Source of the DNA: a bacterium
GTDB lineage: Bacteria > Bacillota > Limnochordia > DTU080 > RSA5
Reading direction: 5' to 3'
Assembly (NCBI GenBank): GCA_002919195.1
Contig: PKEU01000170.1
Location: forward strand, 1 to 32,695
Length of the DNA: 32,695 nt
Part shown: positions 4,311 to 9,132 of the stretch, one piece after another
Numbering within the stretch: the first letter of the stretch is position 1
Layout: each line of letters begins with the position of its first letter
Notes under the pieces: generated by a model
The model's input: the letters and a program-made list of their open reading frames with translations, nothing else
What the model was told of the DNA's origin: nothing
Databases searched by the model: none
Made by a program: the position numbers and the translations under genes

Positions 4311-4341
4311 TTCGACCCGCCGGCCCCCGTTGTGGTATGAT
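4311..4341 (+). promoter_or_regulatory. Candidate promoter of the molybdenum-cofactor genes (extended -10)
   Basis: TGGTATGAT (4333-4341) is an extended -10 element. TTCGAC (4311-4316) is a weak -35 with a 19-base spacer. It lies just after the preceding terminator-like hairpin and about 33 bases before the mog start. Confidence 0.5.
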
Positions 4342-4374
4342 GGGATCGTCACCCACGCAAGGAGGAGCACCAGC

Positions 4375-4854
4375 TTGAGGGTGGGCGTCGTCACCGTCAG
4401 CGACGGTGTGTTTTACGGTCACCGGGAAGACGAGAGCGGACGAGCGATTTGCGAGGTCGTCCAACACGCAGGGCACGTCGTCGTGTCGCATCGCGTCGTG
4501 CCCGACGAGATGGAGGCGATTAAAGCCGCCCTTTTCGAGATGGTGGACGAGCTCGACGTGGACTTGGTCCTCACGACTGGCGGGACGGGCGTTGCTCCTC
4601 GCGACGTGACCCCCGAAGCGACCCGCGCCATCTTGGAGAAGGAAGTTCCCGGCATTCCCGAAGCTATGCGTTACCATGGGCTGGCCAAGTCGCCCAGGGC
4701 GATGTTTTCGCGGGCCGTCGCCGGCGTGCGAAAGCGGACATTGATCGTCAATCTCCCAGGGAGTGTGCGCGGCGTCCAGGAGAGCCTGGAGGCGATTTAC
4801 TCCGAGCTCGAGCATGCGGTCGCGCTGATCCGGGGGCAGCCCGTCGACCACTAG
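4375..4854 (+). CDS. mog: Molybdopterin adenylyltransferase / MoaB-Mog family protein
   Basis: Mog/MoaB proteins adenylylate molybdopterin before molybdate insertion during molybdenum-cofactor synthesis in the cytoplasm. The 159-residue product is one MoCF-biosynthesis domain. It opens with VGVVTVSDGV, carries the signature TTGGTGVAPRDVTPEAT with the conserved aspartate after the glycine loop, and closes with NLPGSVRGVQESL. The TTG start at 4375 was chosen because GGAGGAG (4361-4367) lies 7 bases upstream; a longer frame from 4330 starts inside the promoter. The gene is followed 15 bases later by a moeA-like gene, so the two probably act in sequence. Distinguishing active Mog from catalytically variant MoaB needs alignment. 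Confidence 0.9.
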   Translation: MRVGVVTVSDGVFYGHREDESGRAICEVVQHAGHVVVSHRVVPDEMEAIKAALFEMVDELDVDLVLTTGGTGVAPRDVTPEATRAILEKEVPGIPEAMRYHGLAKSPRAMFSRAVAGVRKRTLIVNLPGSVRGVQESLEAIYSELEHAVALIRGQPVDH

Positions 4855-4869
4855 GAAGGAGGGGCCCGA

Positions 4870-5856
4870 GTGCGGAAGGTTCCAGTCCAACAGGCTGTGG
4901 GAAGCGTCCTCTGCCACGACATCACGCGCATCATCCCCGGCAAGGTGCAAGAGGCAGCGTTTAAGAAAGGACACGTCGTGCGGGAGGAAGATATCGAGGA
5001 GCTTCTCAAGCTGGGAAAGGACCATGTGTACGTCTGGGAGCCCCAACCTGGCATGCTGCACGAGGACGACGCGGCGCTCCGCATAGCGGCCGCAGCCGCG
5101 AAAGCCGGGATCGAGTGGGACGATCCCAGCGAGGGAAAGGTCGAACTCAAAGCGGTCCACCCGGGAGTCTTGCGCGTCGACGTGGAGGCCTTGAGGCAGG
5201 TCAACAGCGTCGAGCAGGTGACGCTCGTCACCAGAAGGAACCACGAACCCGTCTTGCACCGTGGGGAACAGATCGCCGCAGCCCGGGTGATCCCCCTTTT
5301 TATCGAGGAAGAGAAGGTGGCGGCCGCCGAAAAGGTCATGGCCCAAGCGGGGGGCATTCTCGCGGTGACGCCGTTCCGCCTCAAGCGGGTGGGGGTGGTG
5401 ATCACCGGAAACGAAGTGTACTACGGGCGCATCCAAGACGGTTTCGGCCCAGTACTCCGGGAGAAGTTTGCCGCGCTGGGCTGCGAGATCGTTGGCGTGG
5501 AGTATGCCCCCGACGACCGGTCGGTTATCGTCGACAAAATCCTCTCCTTTGCTCAAAGCGGCGCGGAGATGATCGTCGCCACCGGCGGCATGTCGGTGGA
5601 CCCGGACGACCAGACTCCCGGTGCGATCAAAGCAGCGGGTGTAGAGATCGTCTCTTACGGCATTCCCATGCTGCCGGGCAACATGTACTTGGTGGGCTAT
5701 CTGGGAGACCTTCCGGTGATGGGGCTTCCCGGCTGTGTCATGTTTAAAGAGAAGACGGCTTTTGACTATCTTGTGCCCCGGGTGTTGACGGGTGAACGCT
5801 TGACCCGGGCCGACATCGTCGAGCTGGGCCACGGCGGCCTTTTGAACCACTGCTGA
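4870..5856 (+). CDS. MoeA-like molybdopterin-binding protein (short form)
   Basis: Predicted late step of molybdenum-cofactor synthesis or cofactor delivery. The 328-residue protein starts at GTG 4870 behind AAGGAGGGG (4856-4864). The C-terminal half (about residues 170-310) is a MoCF domain with VGVVITGNEVYYGRIQD, ATGGMSVDPDDQTPGAI, IPMLPGNM and MGLPGCVMF. The N-terminal half resembles MoeA in VLCHDITRIIPG and KGHVVREEDIEELLKLG. It is shorter than classical MoeA (about 400 residues) and appears to lack the extra C-terminal domain IV. Such short forms are common in anaerobic Firmicutes and are usually labelled molybdopterin-binding protein. It sits in an operon with mog and just upstream of the Tat genes, through which many molybdoenzymes are exported. 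Confidence 0.88.
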   Translation: MRKVPVQQAVGSVLCHDITRIIPGKVQEAAFKKGHVVREEDIEELLKLGKDHVYVWEPQPGMLHEDDAALRIAAAAAKAGIEWDDPSEGKVELKAVHPGVLRVDVEALRQVNSVEQVTLVTRRNHEPVLHRGEQIAAARVIPLFIEEEKVAAAEKVMAQAGGILAVTPFRLKRVGVVITGNEVYYGRIQDGFGPVLREKFAALGCEIVGVEYAPDDRSVIVDKILSFAQSGAEMIVATGGMSVDPDDQTPGAIKAAGVEIVSYGIPMLPGNMYLVGYLGDLPVMGLPGCVMFKEKTAFDYLVPRVLTGERLTRADIVELGHGGLLNHC

Positions 5857-5912: not shown

Positions 5913-6131
5913 GTGTTTGGAAACATCGGTGCCACTGAACTGATTATCATCCTGGTGCTGGCGCTCATCATTTTTGGACCGGGAAAGCTGCCGGAGGTCG
6001 GCAAAGCCATCGGCCGCAGCATCCGCGAGTTTAAGAGAGCCCAAAGCGGGCTCGATGAAGATGATGAACAGGGAGGCGCAAAGCTTCCGCCCAAGGATGG
6101 CGCCCAGCCGGGTGATCGCCCTGAAAAGTGA
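5913..6131 (+). CDS. tatA: Twin-arginine translocase subunit TatA
   Basis: Pore-forming component of the Tat pathway, which exports folded, often cofactor-bearing proteins. The 72-residue product begins at GTG 5913 behind AAAGGAG (5898-5904). It shows the classic pattern: MFGNIGATELIIIL, one membrane helix, FGPGKLPEVGKAIG forming the hinge, an amphipathic helix (SIREFKRAQSG) and an acidic, proline-rich tail. A longer in-frame reading from 5868 lacks a ribosome site. No TatB-like gene is present; in Gram-positive bacteria TatA is usually bifunctional. The stop overlaps the region just before tatC, so translation is likely coupled. Confidence 0.96.
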   Translation: MFGNIGATELIIILVLALIIFGPGKLPEVGKAIGRSIREFKRAQSGLDEDDEQGGAKLPPKDGAQPGDRPEK

Positions 6132-6156
6132 GGTGGACGAGGGCAAGGAGCTGGAG

Positions 6157-6930
6157 TTGGAGCAAGGCGGCCAGCCTTTCCCGGGCCCTCTGGGAAGCCT
6201 CTTGGCGGTGCTCGAGCAAGAGGCCGAAGGCCTTGTCGAGCACCTGGCGGAGCTCCGGATCCGCCTCATCATCTACCTCGTTGCGCTGGGCGCGGGATCG
6301 ATCGCCGGCTGGTGGCTGACACCGCACCTTCTCGCGCTGTTTGCAAAATCGGTGGGAAGACTTATTTTCATTGCGCCGGCGGAAGCTCTCTTGACAAAGA
6401 TCAAGATCGCCTTTTCCTTGGGATTCGTGTTTTCGCTTCCCGTCGGTCTCTTCCAGCTTTGGCGGTTTGTAGCGCCGGCTCTTTTTCCCGAAGAAAAGAG
6501 CCTTTTCCGGTGGTTTCTGGGGCTTGGGAGCTTCCTGTTTGCGTCGGGGTTGGTGTTTGGCTACACCGTGGTGTATCCGGTCGCTCTCTCGTTTTTCTTA
6601 CGATTTGACACCGAGGGATTGCGGGCAGCCATCGTCGTGAGCCGGCACCTTTCGTTTTTCTTGGGAACGACGCTCTCGTTTGCCCTCGCCTTTCAACTGC
6701 CGCTGGCTCTCTTGATCCTGGTGAGAGCAGGGATCGTTTCAGCGGCGAGGCTGAAAGAGATGCGCCGGCCCGCGATCTTTTTTTGCGCCGTCGCGGCAGC
6801 GGTATTGACGCCGGCAGACGCGGTGTCCCACCTCCTGATGGCCGTTCCTCTCGCCATCTTGTACGAGCTGACCGTTTGGCTCGCGCCTCGCTTTGAAAGG
6901 AGAGAGGATTCTCCTGAGCCAGGGATTTAA
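6157..6930 (+). CDS. tatC: Twin-arginine translocase subunit TatC, copy 1
   Basis: TatC is the six-helix membrane receptor that recognises twin-arginine signal peptides. This copy shows the N-terminal cytoplasmic motif EHLAELRIRLI, the family block FIAPAEALLTKIKIA with the conserved glutamate, FVAPALFPEEKSLF after helix 2, and LTPADAVSHLLMAVPLAILYE at the C-terminus. The start is uncertain. TTG at 6157 has AAGGAG (6145-6150) 6 bases upstream and gives 257 residues; GTG at 6133 directly after the tatA stop is an alternative. The acidic N-terminal extension before the first motif (about 25 residues) is longer than usual. The 3' end overlaps the second tatC. Confidence 0.93.
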   Translation: MEQGGQPFPGPLGSLLAVLEQEAEGLVEHLAELRIRLIIYLVALGAGSIAGWWLTPHLLALFAKSVGRLIFIAPAEALLTKIKIAFSLGFVFSLPVGLFQLWRFVAPALFPEEKSLFRWFLGLGSFLFASGLVFGYTVVYPVALSFFLRFDTEGLRAAIVVSRHLSFFLGTTLSFALAFQLPLALLILVRAGIVSAARLKEMRRPAIFFCAVAAAVLTPADAVSHLLMAVPLAILYELTVWLAPRFERREDSPEPGI

Positions 6931-7639
6931 TGTCCTCGATCATCTTGATTATCTGAGGCTCCGCCTCATCAGGGCCATCCTGGCTTTTTTGCTCGCGTCG
7001 GTGGCCGGGTTTTGGCTGGCCCCGTGGGTGGTCCAGTCTGTGCTCCTCCGTCACGTCGGCCTCGACGGATTGGTCTTTCTCAGCCCGGCGGAGGCGCTGC
7101 TTGCCCGGCTCAAGCTCGCGTTCTCGATTGGGTTTGTCTTGGCCCTGCCGCTCATCCTTTACCAACTATGGGCTCTCTTTGTGCCCGCCATGGACCAAAA
7201 ACAGCGGCGATGGACGCTCTTATTGATTCCCGGCGTCTACGCCCTTTTTCTCTTGGGGATCGCTTTCGCGGTCGGGGCGGTTTTGCCCACGGCGCTCCGC
7301 TTTTTACTGGGCTTTGGCGGGGAGCACCTGGAGCACGAGATCTCCATCGCCAACTACATCTCTTTCGTGATCAATTTCGCCCTGCCGTTCGGCATCATCT
7401 TTGAGCTGCCGGTGGTGGTGGTCGGGCTGACGCGCCTTGGCATCCTGCGCCCGGCCGCGCTCGAGCGCAACCGCAAGTACACCATTTTTGTCATCTTTGT
7501 GCTCGCTGCGATCTTGACGCCCCCCGATGCGGTCTCCCAAATCATGCTGGCCGTACCCATCATCCTCTTATTTGAGTTGAGCCTTCTTCTCGCCCGTTGG
7601 ACAAAACCCAGGGAGGAGAGGCAAGAAACGGAGGTCTAA
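6908..7639 (+). CDS. tatC: Twin-arginine translocase subunit TatC, copy 2
   Basis: A second full-length TatC directly overlaps the first. It has DHLDYLRLRLI at the N-terminus, FLSPAEALLARLKLAFSIG, LYQLWALFVPAMDQKQRRW and a C-terminal LTPPDAVSQIMLAVPIILLFE, with six predicted membrane helices. Both copies keep the conserved glutamate in the SPAEALL or APAEALL block, so neither looks dead. The start codon is odd. The only canonical option is TTG 6893, which has no ribosome site. AAAGGAG (6896-6902) instead points to ATT at 6908 (5 bases) and GAGAGG to CTG at 6914 (6 bases). I use 6908. The gene is in tandem with tatA and tatC1 and lies 2 bases before the hemB-like gene. Confidence 0.9.
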   Translation: MLLSQGFNVLDHLDYLRLRLIRAILAFLLASVAGFWLAPWVVQSVLLRHVGLDGLVFLSPAEALLARLKLAFSIGFVLALPLILYQLWALFVPAMDQKQRRWTLLLIPGVYALFLLGIAFAVGAVLPTALRFLLGFGGEHLEHEISIANYISFVINFALPFGIIFELPVVVVGLTRLGILRPAALERNRKYTIFVIFVLAAILTPPDAVSQIMLAVPIILLFELSLLLARWTKPREERQETEV

Positions 7640-7641
7640 GC

Positions 7642-8610
7642 GTGTTTCCCACCCACCGCATGCGCCGGCTGAGAAAAAGCGAAAACGTGCGCCGTCTCGT
7701 ACGCGAGACAGGTTTTTCCATCGATCGCCTGGTCTATCCGCTCATCGTCGTGCCAGGCATGGGGAAAGCCGAACCGATCCCCTGGATGCCTGACGTCTAC
7801 CGTTTTTCCGTCGACCGCTTGATGGACGAGATTCGCTCGATCGTTCAACTGGGCATCCGCTCCGTGCTGCTCTACGGGATTCCCGAAGCCAAGGACGAAG
7901 AGGGAAGCGAGGCCTACAGCCCCGCCGGCACGGTGCAGCGTGCGGTGAGGGCCATCAAACACCTGATTCCCGACCTGGTGGTCATCACCGACGTATGCCT
8001 CTGCCAGTATACGACACACGGTCACTGTGGGATCTTTGAGGCTGGGAGCGTGCAAAACGACGCGACGCTCGAGATCCTGCAGCGCGTGGCGCTCTCCCAT
8101 GCGCAGGCCGGCGCCGATTTCGTCGCCCCTTCCAGCATGATGGACGGGCAGGTGGCAGCTTTACGCGAAGCGCTTGACCGGGACTACTTTGAAGAGGTGG
8201 GCATCGTCTCCGTTTCGGCGCGGTACGCGTCGGCTTATGATACTCCCTTGTACCAGGCGGTCGATGCCGTGGTCGCGGACGACGATCGTCGCGCTTATCA
8301 AATGGACCCGGCCAACGCCTACGAAGCCTTGCGGGAGGCAGCCCTTGACATTGAGGAGGGCGCCGACGTGATCATGGTGCAGCCCGCTCTGCCTTACGTG
8401 GATGTGATCCGCCGGGTCAAAGAGGCCTACCAGATGCCGGTCGCCGCTTGCAGCACCGGAGGCGAGTACGCCATGATTAAAGCAGCCGCTCAGAATGGCT
8501 GGATCGACGAGCAGCAAGCGGTCTTAGAAAACGTGCAGGCGATGCGGCGCGCCGGCGCCGACTTGATCGTCACGTTTCATGCAAAGGCGATCGCCCAATG
8601 GCTTGCGTAA
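7642..8610 (+). CDS. Porphobilinogen synthase (HemB) homologue lacking both catalytic lysines
   Basis: By overall sequence this 322-residue protein belongs to the HemB family, whose members condense two 5-aminolevulinate molecules to porphobilinogen for tetrapyrrole synthesis. Conserved blocks include RMRRLRKSENVRRLVRET, KDEEGSEAYS, DVCLCQYTTHGHCG (zinc cysteines 119, 121 and 129 all kept), YQMDPAN and KAAAQNGWID. The active site, however, is rebuilt. The first Schiff-base lysine (SAKxAS in the family) is Arg194, the second (VKPA) is Gln247, the FYGPFRDA loop reads YDTPLYQA, and the (V/I)SGEY loop reads TGGEY. The codons are in frame and unambiguous. Normal Schiff-base chemistry is therefore unlikely; the protein may be a regulatory or structural paralogue or may catalyse something else. 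GTG 7642 has GGAGGT (7630-7635) upstream and follows tatC2 by two bases. Confidence 0.85.
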   Translation: MFPTHRMRRLRKSENVRRLVRETGFSIDRLVYPLIVVPGMGKAEPIPWMPDVYRFSVDRLMDEIRSIVQLGIRSVLLYGIPEAKDEEGSEAYSPAGTVQRAVRAIKHLIPDLVVITDVCLCQYTTHGHCGIFEAGSVQNDATLEILQRVALSHAQAGADFVAPSSMMDGQVAALREALDRDYFEEVGIVSVSARYASAYDTPLYQAVDAVVADDDRRAYQMDPANAYEALREAALDIEEGADVIMVQPALPYVDVIRRVKEAYQMPVAACSTGGEYAMIKAAAQNGWIDEQQAVLENVQAMRRAGADLIVTFHAKAIAQWLA

Positions 8611-8721
8611 GGTGATACGCTAAAGAAGTCAGGGGCAATCAGGAAGGCCCCGCCGCCGCGACCGAGTAATCTACAACGTTGTGCGTTACAAAGGCAAGAG
8701 TGAGGAGGAGCGCATCACACG

Positions 8722-9132
8722 ATGGAAACGCAGCAAACATTTATCATCATCAAACCTGAAGCCGTCGCCCGCGGGCTCGTCGGCGAGATTTTGAGGCGCT
8801 TTGAAGCGAAGGGGCTCAAGATCCGCCGGCTTGCCATGAAAACCATCGAGCCCGACGTCGCCCGGGTGCACTATGGTCACCACGCGGACAAGCCCTTTTT
8901 TCCAGAGCTGATCGAGGCGATCACGGCTGGTCCCGTGGTCATCGGCGTCCTCGAAGGCCCTGGCGCCATCGCTCACGTCCGCAACTTGATCGGAGCTACG
9001 GATCCGCTCAAGGCGGCCCCTGGAACCATTCGCGGCGACTTTGCGTTGCAAAATCCCTACAATATGGTTCACGCCTCCGACAGCCCCGAGACTGCCCGTG
9101 ACGAGATCGCCCGGTTTTTCGGCGACGAGTAA
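8722..9132 (+). CDS. ndk: Nucleoside diphosphate kinase
   Basis: Ndk equalises nucleoside triphosphate pools by moving the gamma phosphate of ATP to nucleoside diphosphates through a phosphohistidine. The 136-residue product has the usual length. It shows the N-terminal TFIIIKPEAVARG (nucleotide-binding lysine), HYGHHADKPFF, the VRNLIGATDP loop, APGTIRGDF, and the active-site histidine in NMVHASDS. ATG 8722 is preceded by GAGGAGGAG (8702-8710), 11 bases away. About 110 bases separate it from the hemB-like gene; no convincing promoter was found there, only a 10-base palindrome. It is convergent with the vWA operon, and a strong hairpin lies between them. Confidence 0.97.
   Translation: METQQTFIIIKPEAVARGLVGEILRRFEAKGLKIRRLAMKTIEPDVARVHYGHHADKPFFPELIEAITAGPVVIGVLEGPGAIAHVRNLIGATDPLKAAPGTIRGDFALQNPYNMVHASDSPETARDEIARFFGDE

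Follow-up and report, generated by a model that had tools for sequence, protein, structure and literature searches.

The gene at positions 7642 to 8610 (plus strand) of the window, the 32,695 nucleotide stretch of DNA analyzed here, encodes an orthologue of HemB (porphobilinogen synthase) in which both Schiff-base lysines have been replaced. It stands in a genome from which the early heme pathway is gone. Judged from the sequence of this single genome, the stranded gene has probably been retained for a job other than making porphobilinogen. Few enzymes of central metabolism are as conserved as HemB. A literature search found no natural HemB lacking both lysines, and to our knowledge none is known. 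The window is contig C19 of genome G000, which comprises 3.13 Mb in 219 contigs and is 96.7% complete. It was compared to the nearest relative, G001 (the sister), which belongs to the same family and another genus and has a normal HemB with 74% identity.

The open reading frame starts with GTG and encodes 322 amino acids plus a stop codon, with no internal stops in the translation. A profile search gave a full-length PF00490 match of 436 bits. The NCBIfam porphobilinogen synthase equivalog model matched at 443 bits, with a cut-off of 297. A ribosome-binding site, GGAGG, was read directly from the sequence at 7630 to 7634 (plus strand), within the terminal part of the preceding tatC. An upstream TTG at 7597 is a possible alternative start, which would overlap tatC.

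The sister has the order tatC-tatC'-hemD-hemB-hemL-ndk and the window has tatC-tatC'-hemB-ndk. The first tatC (5974 to 6930) and the downstream ndk (8722 to 9132) are inherited neighbors. The second tatC (6893 to 7639) abuts hemB here while the sister has hemD between the two. All three are on the plus strand and were assigned by synteny and profile match. The position of the sister's hemL is a 111 bp gap (8611 to 8721) by synteny, and no remnant was found there by tblastn. The sister's gene order is matched over most of the window length. With its 74% identity and the tatC and ndk neighbors common to the sister, the window gene is a true orthologue of canonical hemB.

The original prediction took the two tatC genes and nearby molybdenum-cofactor genes as hints of a redox or export role. 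This did not hold. The tatC pair also adjoins the normal hemB locus of the sister in the same order and, being inherited, carries no functional clue. Between the polyprenyl synthetase gene and tatC there are two molybdopterin-binding-domain genes (4330 to 5856), which the sister lacks at this place. The neighborhood points to no substrate, regulon, or partner of the variant.

Alignment placed the two replacements at Arg194 (codon CGG, 8221 to 8223) and Gln247 (codon CAG, 8380 to 8382), both AAG in the sister, so that the SAK motif reads SAR and the VKP motif VQP. These residues correspond to K205 and K260 of the solved Pseudomonas aeruginosa HemB. The lid loop, FYGPFRD in the family, is YDTPLYQ (residues 199 to 205, 8236 to 8256). 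The P-site strand (8449 to 8460) has Cys270 for Tyr, Thr272 for Val, and Gly273 for Ser, the last also Gly in the sister. Phe312 (8575 to 8577) replaces the P-site tyrosine. In P. aeruginosa numbering F214, R215, Y283, V285, S286, and Y324 have become Leu203, Tyr204, Cys270, Thr272, Gly273, and Phe312. The lid arginine and the P-site Phe, Ser, and Tyr contacts of porphobilinogen synthase (EC 4.2.1.24) are therefore missing from the variant. Retained were the metal-site cysteines Cys119, Cys121, and Cys129 (7996 to 8028) and the A-site carboxylate residues R229 and Q233 of P. aeruginosa, here Arg216 and Gln220. All of these features are on the plus strand and were identified by alignment. The AlphaFold model of the variant has a confident HemB fold (pLDDT 91.4), and its superposition on solved HemBs gives TM-scores of up to 0.97. 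Disorder of the lid was rejected as a sign of decay, as the lid of the sister's normal HemB is modeled with equal uncertainty.

Most of this had been anticipated by the original prediction. The lysine replacements and the altered lid loop were confirmed by alignment, and the zinc cysteines, the fold, and the intact gene by the alignment, the AlphaFold model, and the open frame, respectively. The proposed change of SGEY to GGEY is present but is not part of the lysine loss. The sister's hemB (L103:10472-11443), otherwise canonical and with both lysines, already has Gly at this near-invariant P-site serine, showing that the change preceded the loss.

The Lys to Arg change at 194 and several loop changes each involve two to three base substitutions per codon compared to the sister. 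Such multi-base changes are not explained by single sequencing errors. A pair of frameshifts was also rejected as the source of the altered loop because the codons align in frame and differ by multi-base substitutions.

The pocket was compared to HemBs of the same class and 80 public loci. Lysine was present at both Schiff-base sites in all other aligned relatives (change in 0 of 88). Of the columns with at least 95% conservation the variant departs from 18, while other HemBs depart from 1 on average and from no more than 6. Near-invariant columns were changed at 9 of 16 positions within residues 187 to 220 and at none of 28 within residues 79 to 186. On a list of 12 positions, which we take to be the ligand contacts of the published structures, 10 were changed (9 specific to this genome) compared to 8 of 76 other near-invariant columns. 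The enrichment (Fisher p = 5e-7) is descriptive, the list and the segment limits having been drawn after the changes were seen. A search pattern that excluded a lysine codon from the VKP motif, the lysine form of which recovers 86 of 89 known genes, matched this genome alone among 399 sampled in the phylum. The search for further Arg/Gln members, proposed with the original prediction, thus returned none among the 88 relatives or elsewhere in the 399 genomes. A viral or plasmid origin was rejected, as IMG/VR held no relative of the variant and plasmid HemBs were all below 60% identity.

The search for a second, canonical hemB, also proposed earlier, was run and found none, with a single PF00490 match in the 96.7% complete genome. 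HemA, HemC, and HemE were absent in genome searches while the sister has all three. HemY, present in the sister, had no match above cut-off in the genome. hemD is absent at its ancestral site beside hemB, the one site to which this statement applies, and the hemB-linked hemL is absent from its site downstream. Where the sister has glmM-nnrD-alr-nadE-hemA-hemX-hemC-glgA, nadE is followed here after 63 bp by a glgA-like gene. hemD, hemL, and hemA-hemX-hemC are thus missing within contigs in which the flanking genes match those of the sister. The sister has hemE-hemH-hemY ahead of a luciferase-like gene. Of these three, G000 retains hemH but not hemY at this locus, and no hemE adjoins hemH, the expected position of hemE being near a contig end. 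No remnants of the lost hem genes were found at these sites by tblastn. A selenocysteine tRNA (L135:10639-10735, contig C90) lies between hemH and the luciferase-like gene, at the position of the sister's hemY. The sister has its own selenocysteine tRNA on contig C6 (L138:6675-6771).

A HemL-like aminotransferase is encoded beside ileS (C176:2673-3938; L112, L139) and passes the HemL cut-off. It was rejected as the HemL of the pathway, being an ileS-linked paralogue: the second copy in the sister is 81% identical to it, the hemB-linked HemL 48%. Members of the same order without HemA and HemC carry similar proteins, so it is probably not a heme enzyme. With HemA, HemC, and the hemB-linked HemL absent, hemB is stranded, with no known substrate route and no consumer for its product. 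The original prediction named as counter-case a heme-making organism with this as its only hemB. This is not the situation here: hemB is single but the early pathway is gone.

Later heme functions are kept. The genome encodes a ferrochelatase with the His motif TAHSLP and the Glu motif DHLEVL, ChdC, and three heme-copper oxidase subunits I. The end of the coproporphyrin-dependent pathway is therefore represented by CpfC and ChdC. As CgoX (HemY) had no match above cut-off, already oxidized coproporphyrin, or heme itself, would need to be imported. The need for heme would probably be met by uptake of heme or porphyrin, and the kept ferrochelatase and ChdC could complete heme from imported coproporphyrin III. 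The organism thus probably respires with heme that it imports as such or as porphyrin. A locus on contig C33 (L136:9749-13929) encodes a divergent ferrochelatase homologue of 355 amino acids with the His and Glu motifs partly kept. It directly adjoins genes of a BtuCDF/Hmu-type ABC importer, comprising a periplasmic binding protein, a FecCD-type permease, and an ATPase scoring above the threshold of a heme-importer model. The sister has one ferrochelatase only. By its gene content the C33 locus is a possible site of porphyrin or heme uptake and iron removal. Genome G003, of the same order, has a heme-copper oxidase and lacks HemA, HemB, HemC, ferrochelatase, and ChdC. On this basis heme dependence may be common in the order.

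Compared to the sister, hemB had no stops, frameshifts, or indels in the codon alignment. Its identity of 0.74 and dN/dS of 0.15 were similar to those of the neighbors hepT and speB and of the kept hemH. Around the metal site (residues 79 to 144) dN/dS was 0.036. The branch of the variant is five times longer than that of the sister in amino acids, with 43 derived changes compared to 11. Wholly neutral evolution of the branch was rejected by 20.7 log units, with synonymous sites near saturation. The branch dN/dS was discarded due to this saturation and to a branch length at its bound, and only the rejection of neutrality was used, a test which averages the time before and after pathway loss. 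For 60 to 80 neutral replacements 2.5 to 3.6 stops would be expected. The gene does not classify as a pseudogene, its frame and ribosome-binding site being intact and the neutral branch rejected, a result with which recent relaxation is compatible.

These data bear on whether the gene is a relic, functionless since the pathway was lost, the last early hem gene to decay and with a drifting pocket, its frame still uninterrupted either by chance or owing to a recent loss. The absent pathway partners fit this, and relaxation would likewise give an accelerated branch. One genome carries the variant, the single member of its genus in the comparison. However, no stop, frameshift, or indel was observed against the stops expected, and the other lost hem genes have left no trace. 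Near-invariant columns beyond the pocket were mostly kept, several pocket codons carry two to three base changes, and the overall divergence matches that of functional neighbors. We regard a relic as somewhat unlikely. The intact frame, the kept ribosome-binding site, and a divergence like that of the neighbors favor retention for a new job over decay. We lean towards such reuse, on the evidence of one genome; this preference is divided between a new reaction that depends on metal and a role in binding. Tentatively, the variant may be a HemB-fold enzyme with a new reaction, its pocket rebuilt by selection for a different small substrate. If this is true, no earlier change of reaction is known to us among members of the porphobilinogen synthase family. 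A non-catalytic pseudoenzyme, acting as a sensor, scaffold, or store by binding a tetrapyrrole precursor, porphyrin, carboxylate, or metal, would agree with the missing lysines, with the kept fold, cysteines, Arg216, and Gln220, and with a cell that probably handles imported porphyrin or heme. Against it, the 5-aminolevulinate contacts are mostly gone, making that ligand unlikely, and there is no regulator or partner nearby. This role appears unlikely.

Continued synthesis of porphobilinogen through an unusual mechanism could be argued from the full-length match above the equivalog cut-off and the retained metal site. However, the Schiff-base lysines are absent, and human ALAD K252M, equivalent to Gln247, is reported to be completely inactive (PMC7725820). 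Milder changes in Corynebacterium glutamicum HemB lower activity to 5-15% or to a trace (PMC12997798). The lid arginine and P-site contacts are altered as well, and with HemA and HemC absent the step would be neither fed nor used. An unusual mechanism is scarcely credible. As originally predicted, the variant is very unlikely to make porphobilinogen normally, because it has no Schiff-base lysine and has lost most contacts, and the enzymes of the flanking steps are absent. It is highly improbable that assembly or binning went wrong and that the missing sequence conceals a normal hem pathway. The genome is in 219 contigs and incomplete, and the place of hemE is near a contig end. However, the pocket changes span more than 100 residues in frame with many multi-base codons, and the window gene order follows the sister over most of its length. 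The hem genes are missing inside contigs with both flanks present, and the whole genome lacks HemE and HemY (HemY by cut-off), which the sister encodes at a third locus.

Under retention for a new job, the lineage would have lost de novo tetrapyrrole synthesis (hemA, hemX, hemC, hemD, hemL, hemE, and hemY), leaving hemB stranded and then presumably kept by selection. Schiff-base chemistry appears to have been dropped as one half of the pocket, formerly responsible for holding and activating the first 5-aminolevulinate, was rebuilt. The most likely job would be a zinc- or Fe-S-dependent reaction on a small carboxylate, or binding of one, proposed because the three cysteines, Arg216, and Gln220 are kept. 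An Fe-S cluster has been reported for human ALAD (PMC7725820), and by analogy the three cysteines of the variant could hold zinc or such a cluster.

The variant shares with zinc-cysteine porphobilinogen synthases (HemB, PF00490) the fold, length, three metal cysteines, Arg216/Gln220, and the gene order of the sister. It differs from them in its Schiff-base lysines, lid arginine, and nearly all P-site contacts, which are replaced, and in the absence of the pathway. Pseudomonas HemB2, a Zur-linked paralogue, is also a natural HemB variant with changed active-site residues (PMC2770081). HemB2 is a second copy without the metal cysteines and is expected to remain an active porphobilinogen synthase (PMC2770081), whereas the variant here keeps the cysteines, loses the lysines, and is the sole copy. 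Leucobacter strain GP lacks hemABCE, and strain ASN212 grows on coproporphyrins released by a neighbor (PMC6868719). The Leucobacter strains resemble the present case in the loss of early heme genes, in neighbor-derived heme or porphyrin, and in heme-type importer genes (PMC6868719). In contrast, strain GP has lost hemB too, while here hemB is the sole early gene left, with a pocket that appears rebuilt.

The ancestral hemB of the sister and the derived hemB of the window, in the same gene order, offer a test of the fate of a single-function enzyme after its pathway is lost. The possible fates are decay, a pseudoenzyme, and a new reaction. The gene is also a warning for annotation, as the label porphobilinogen synthase is assigned well above the cut-off in an organism seemingly unable to feed or use that step. 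The finding also indicates a respiring bacterium with a probable dependence on the porphyrin or heme of its neighbors.
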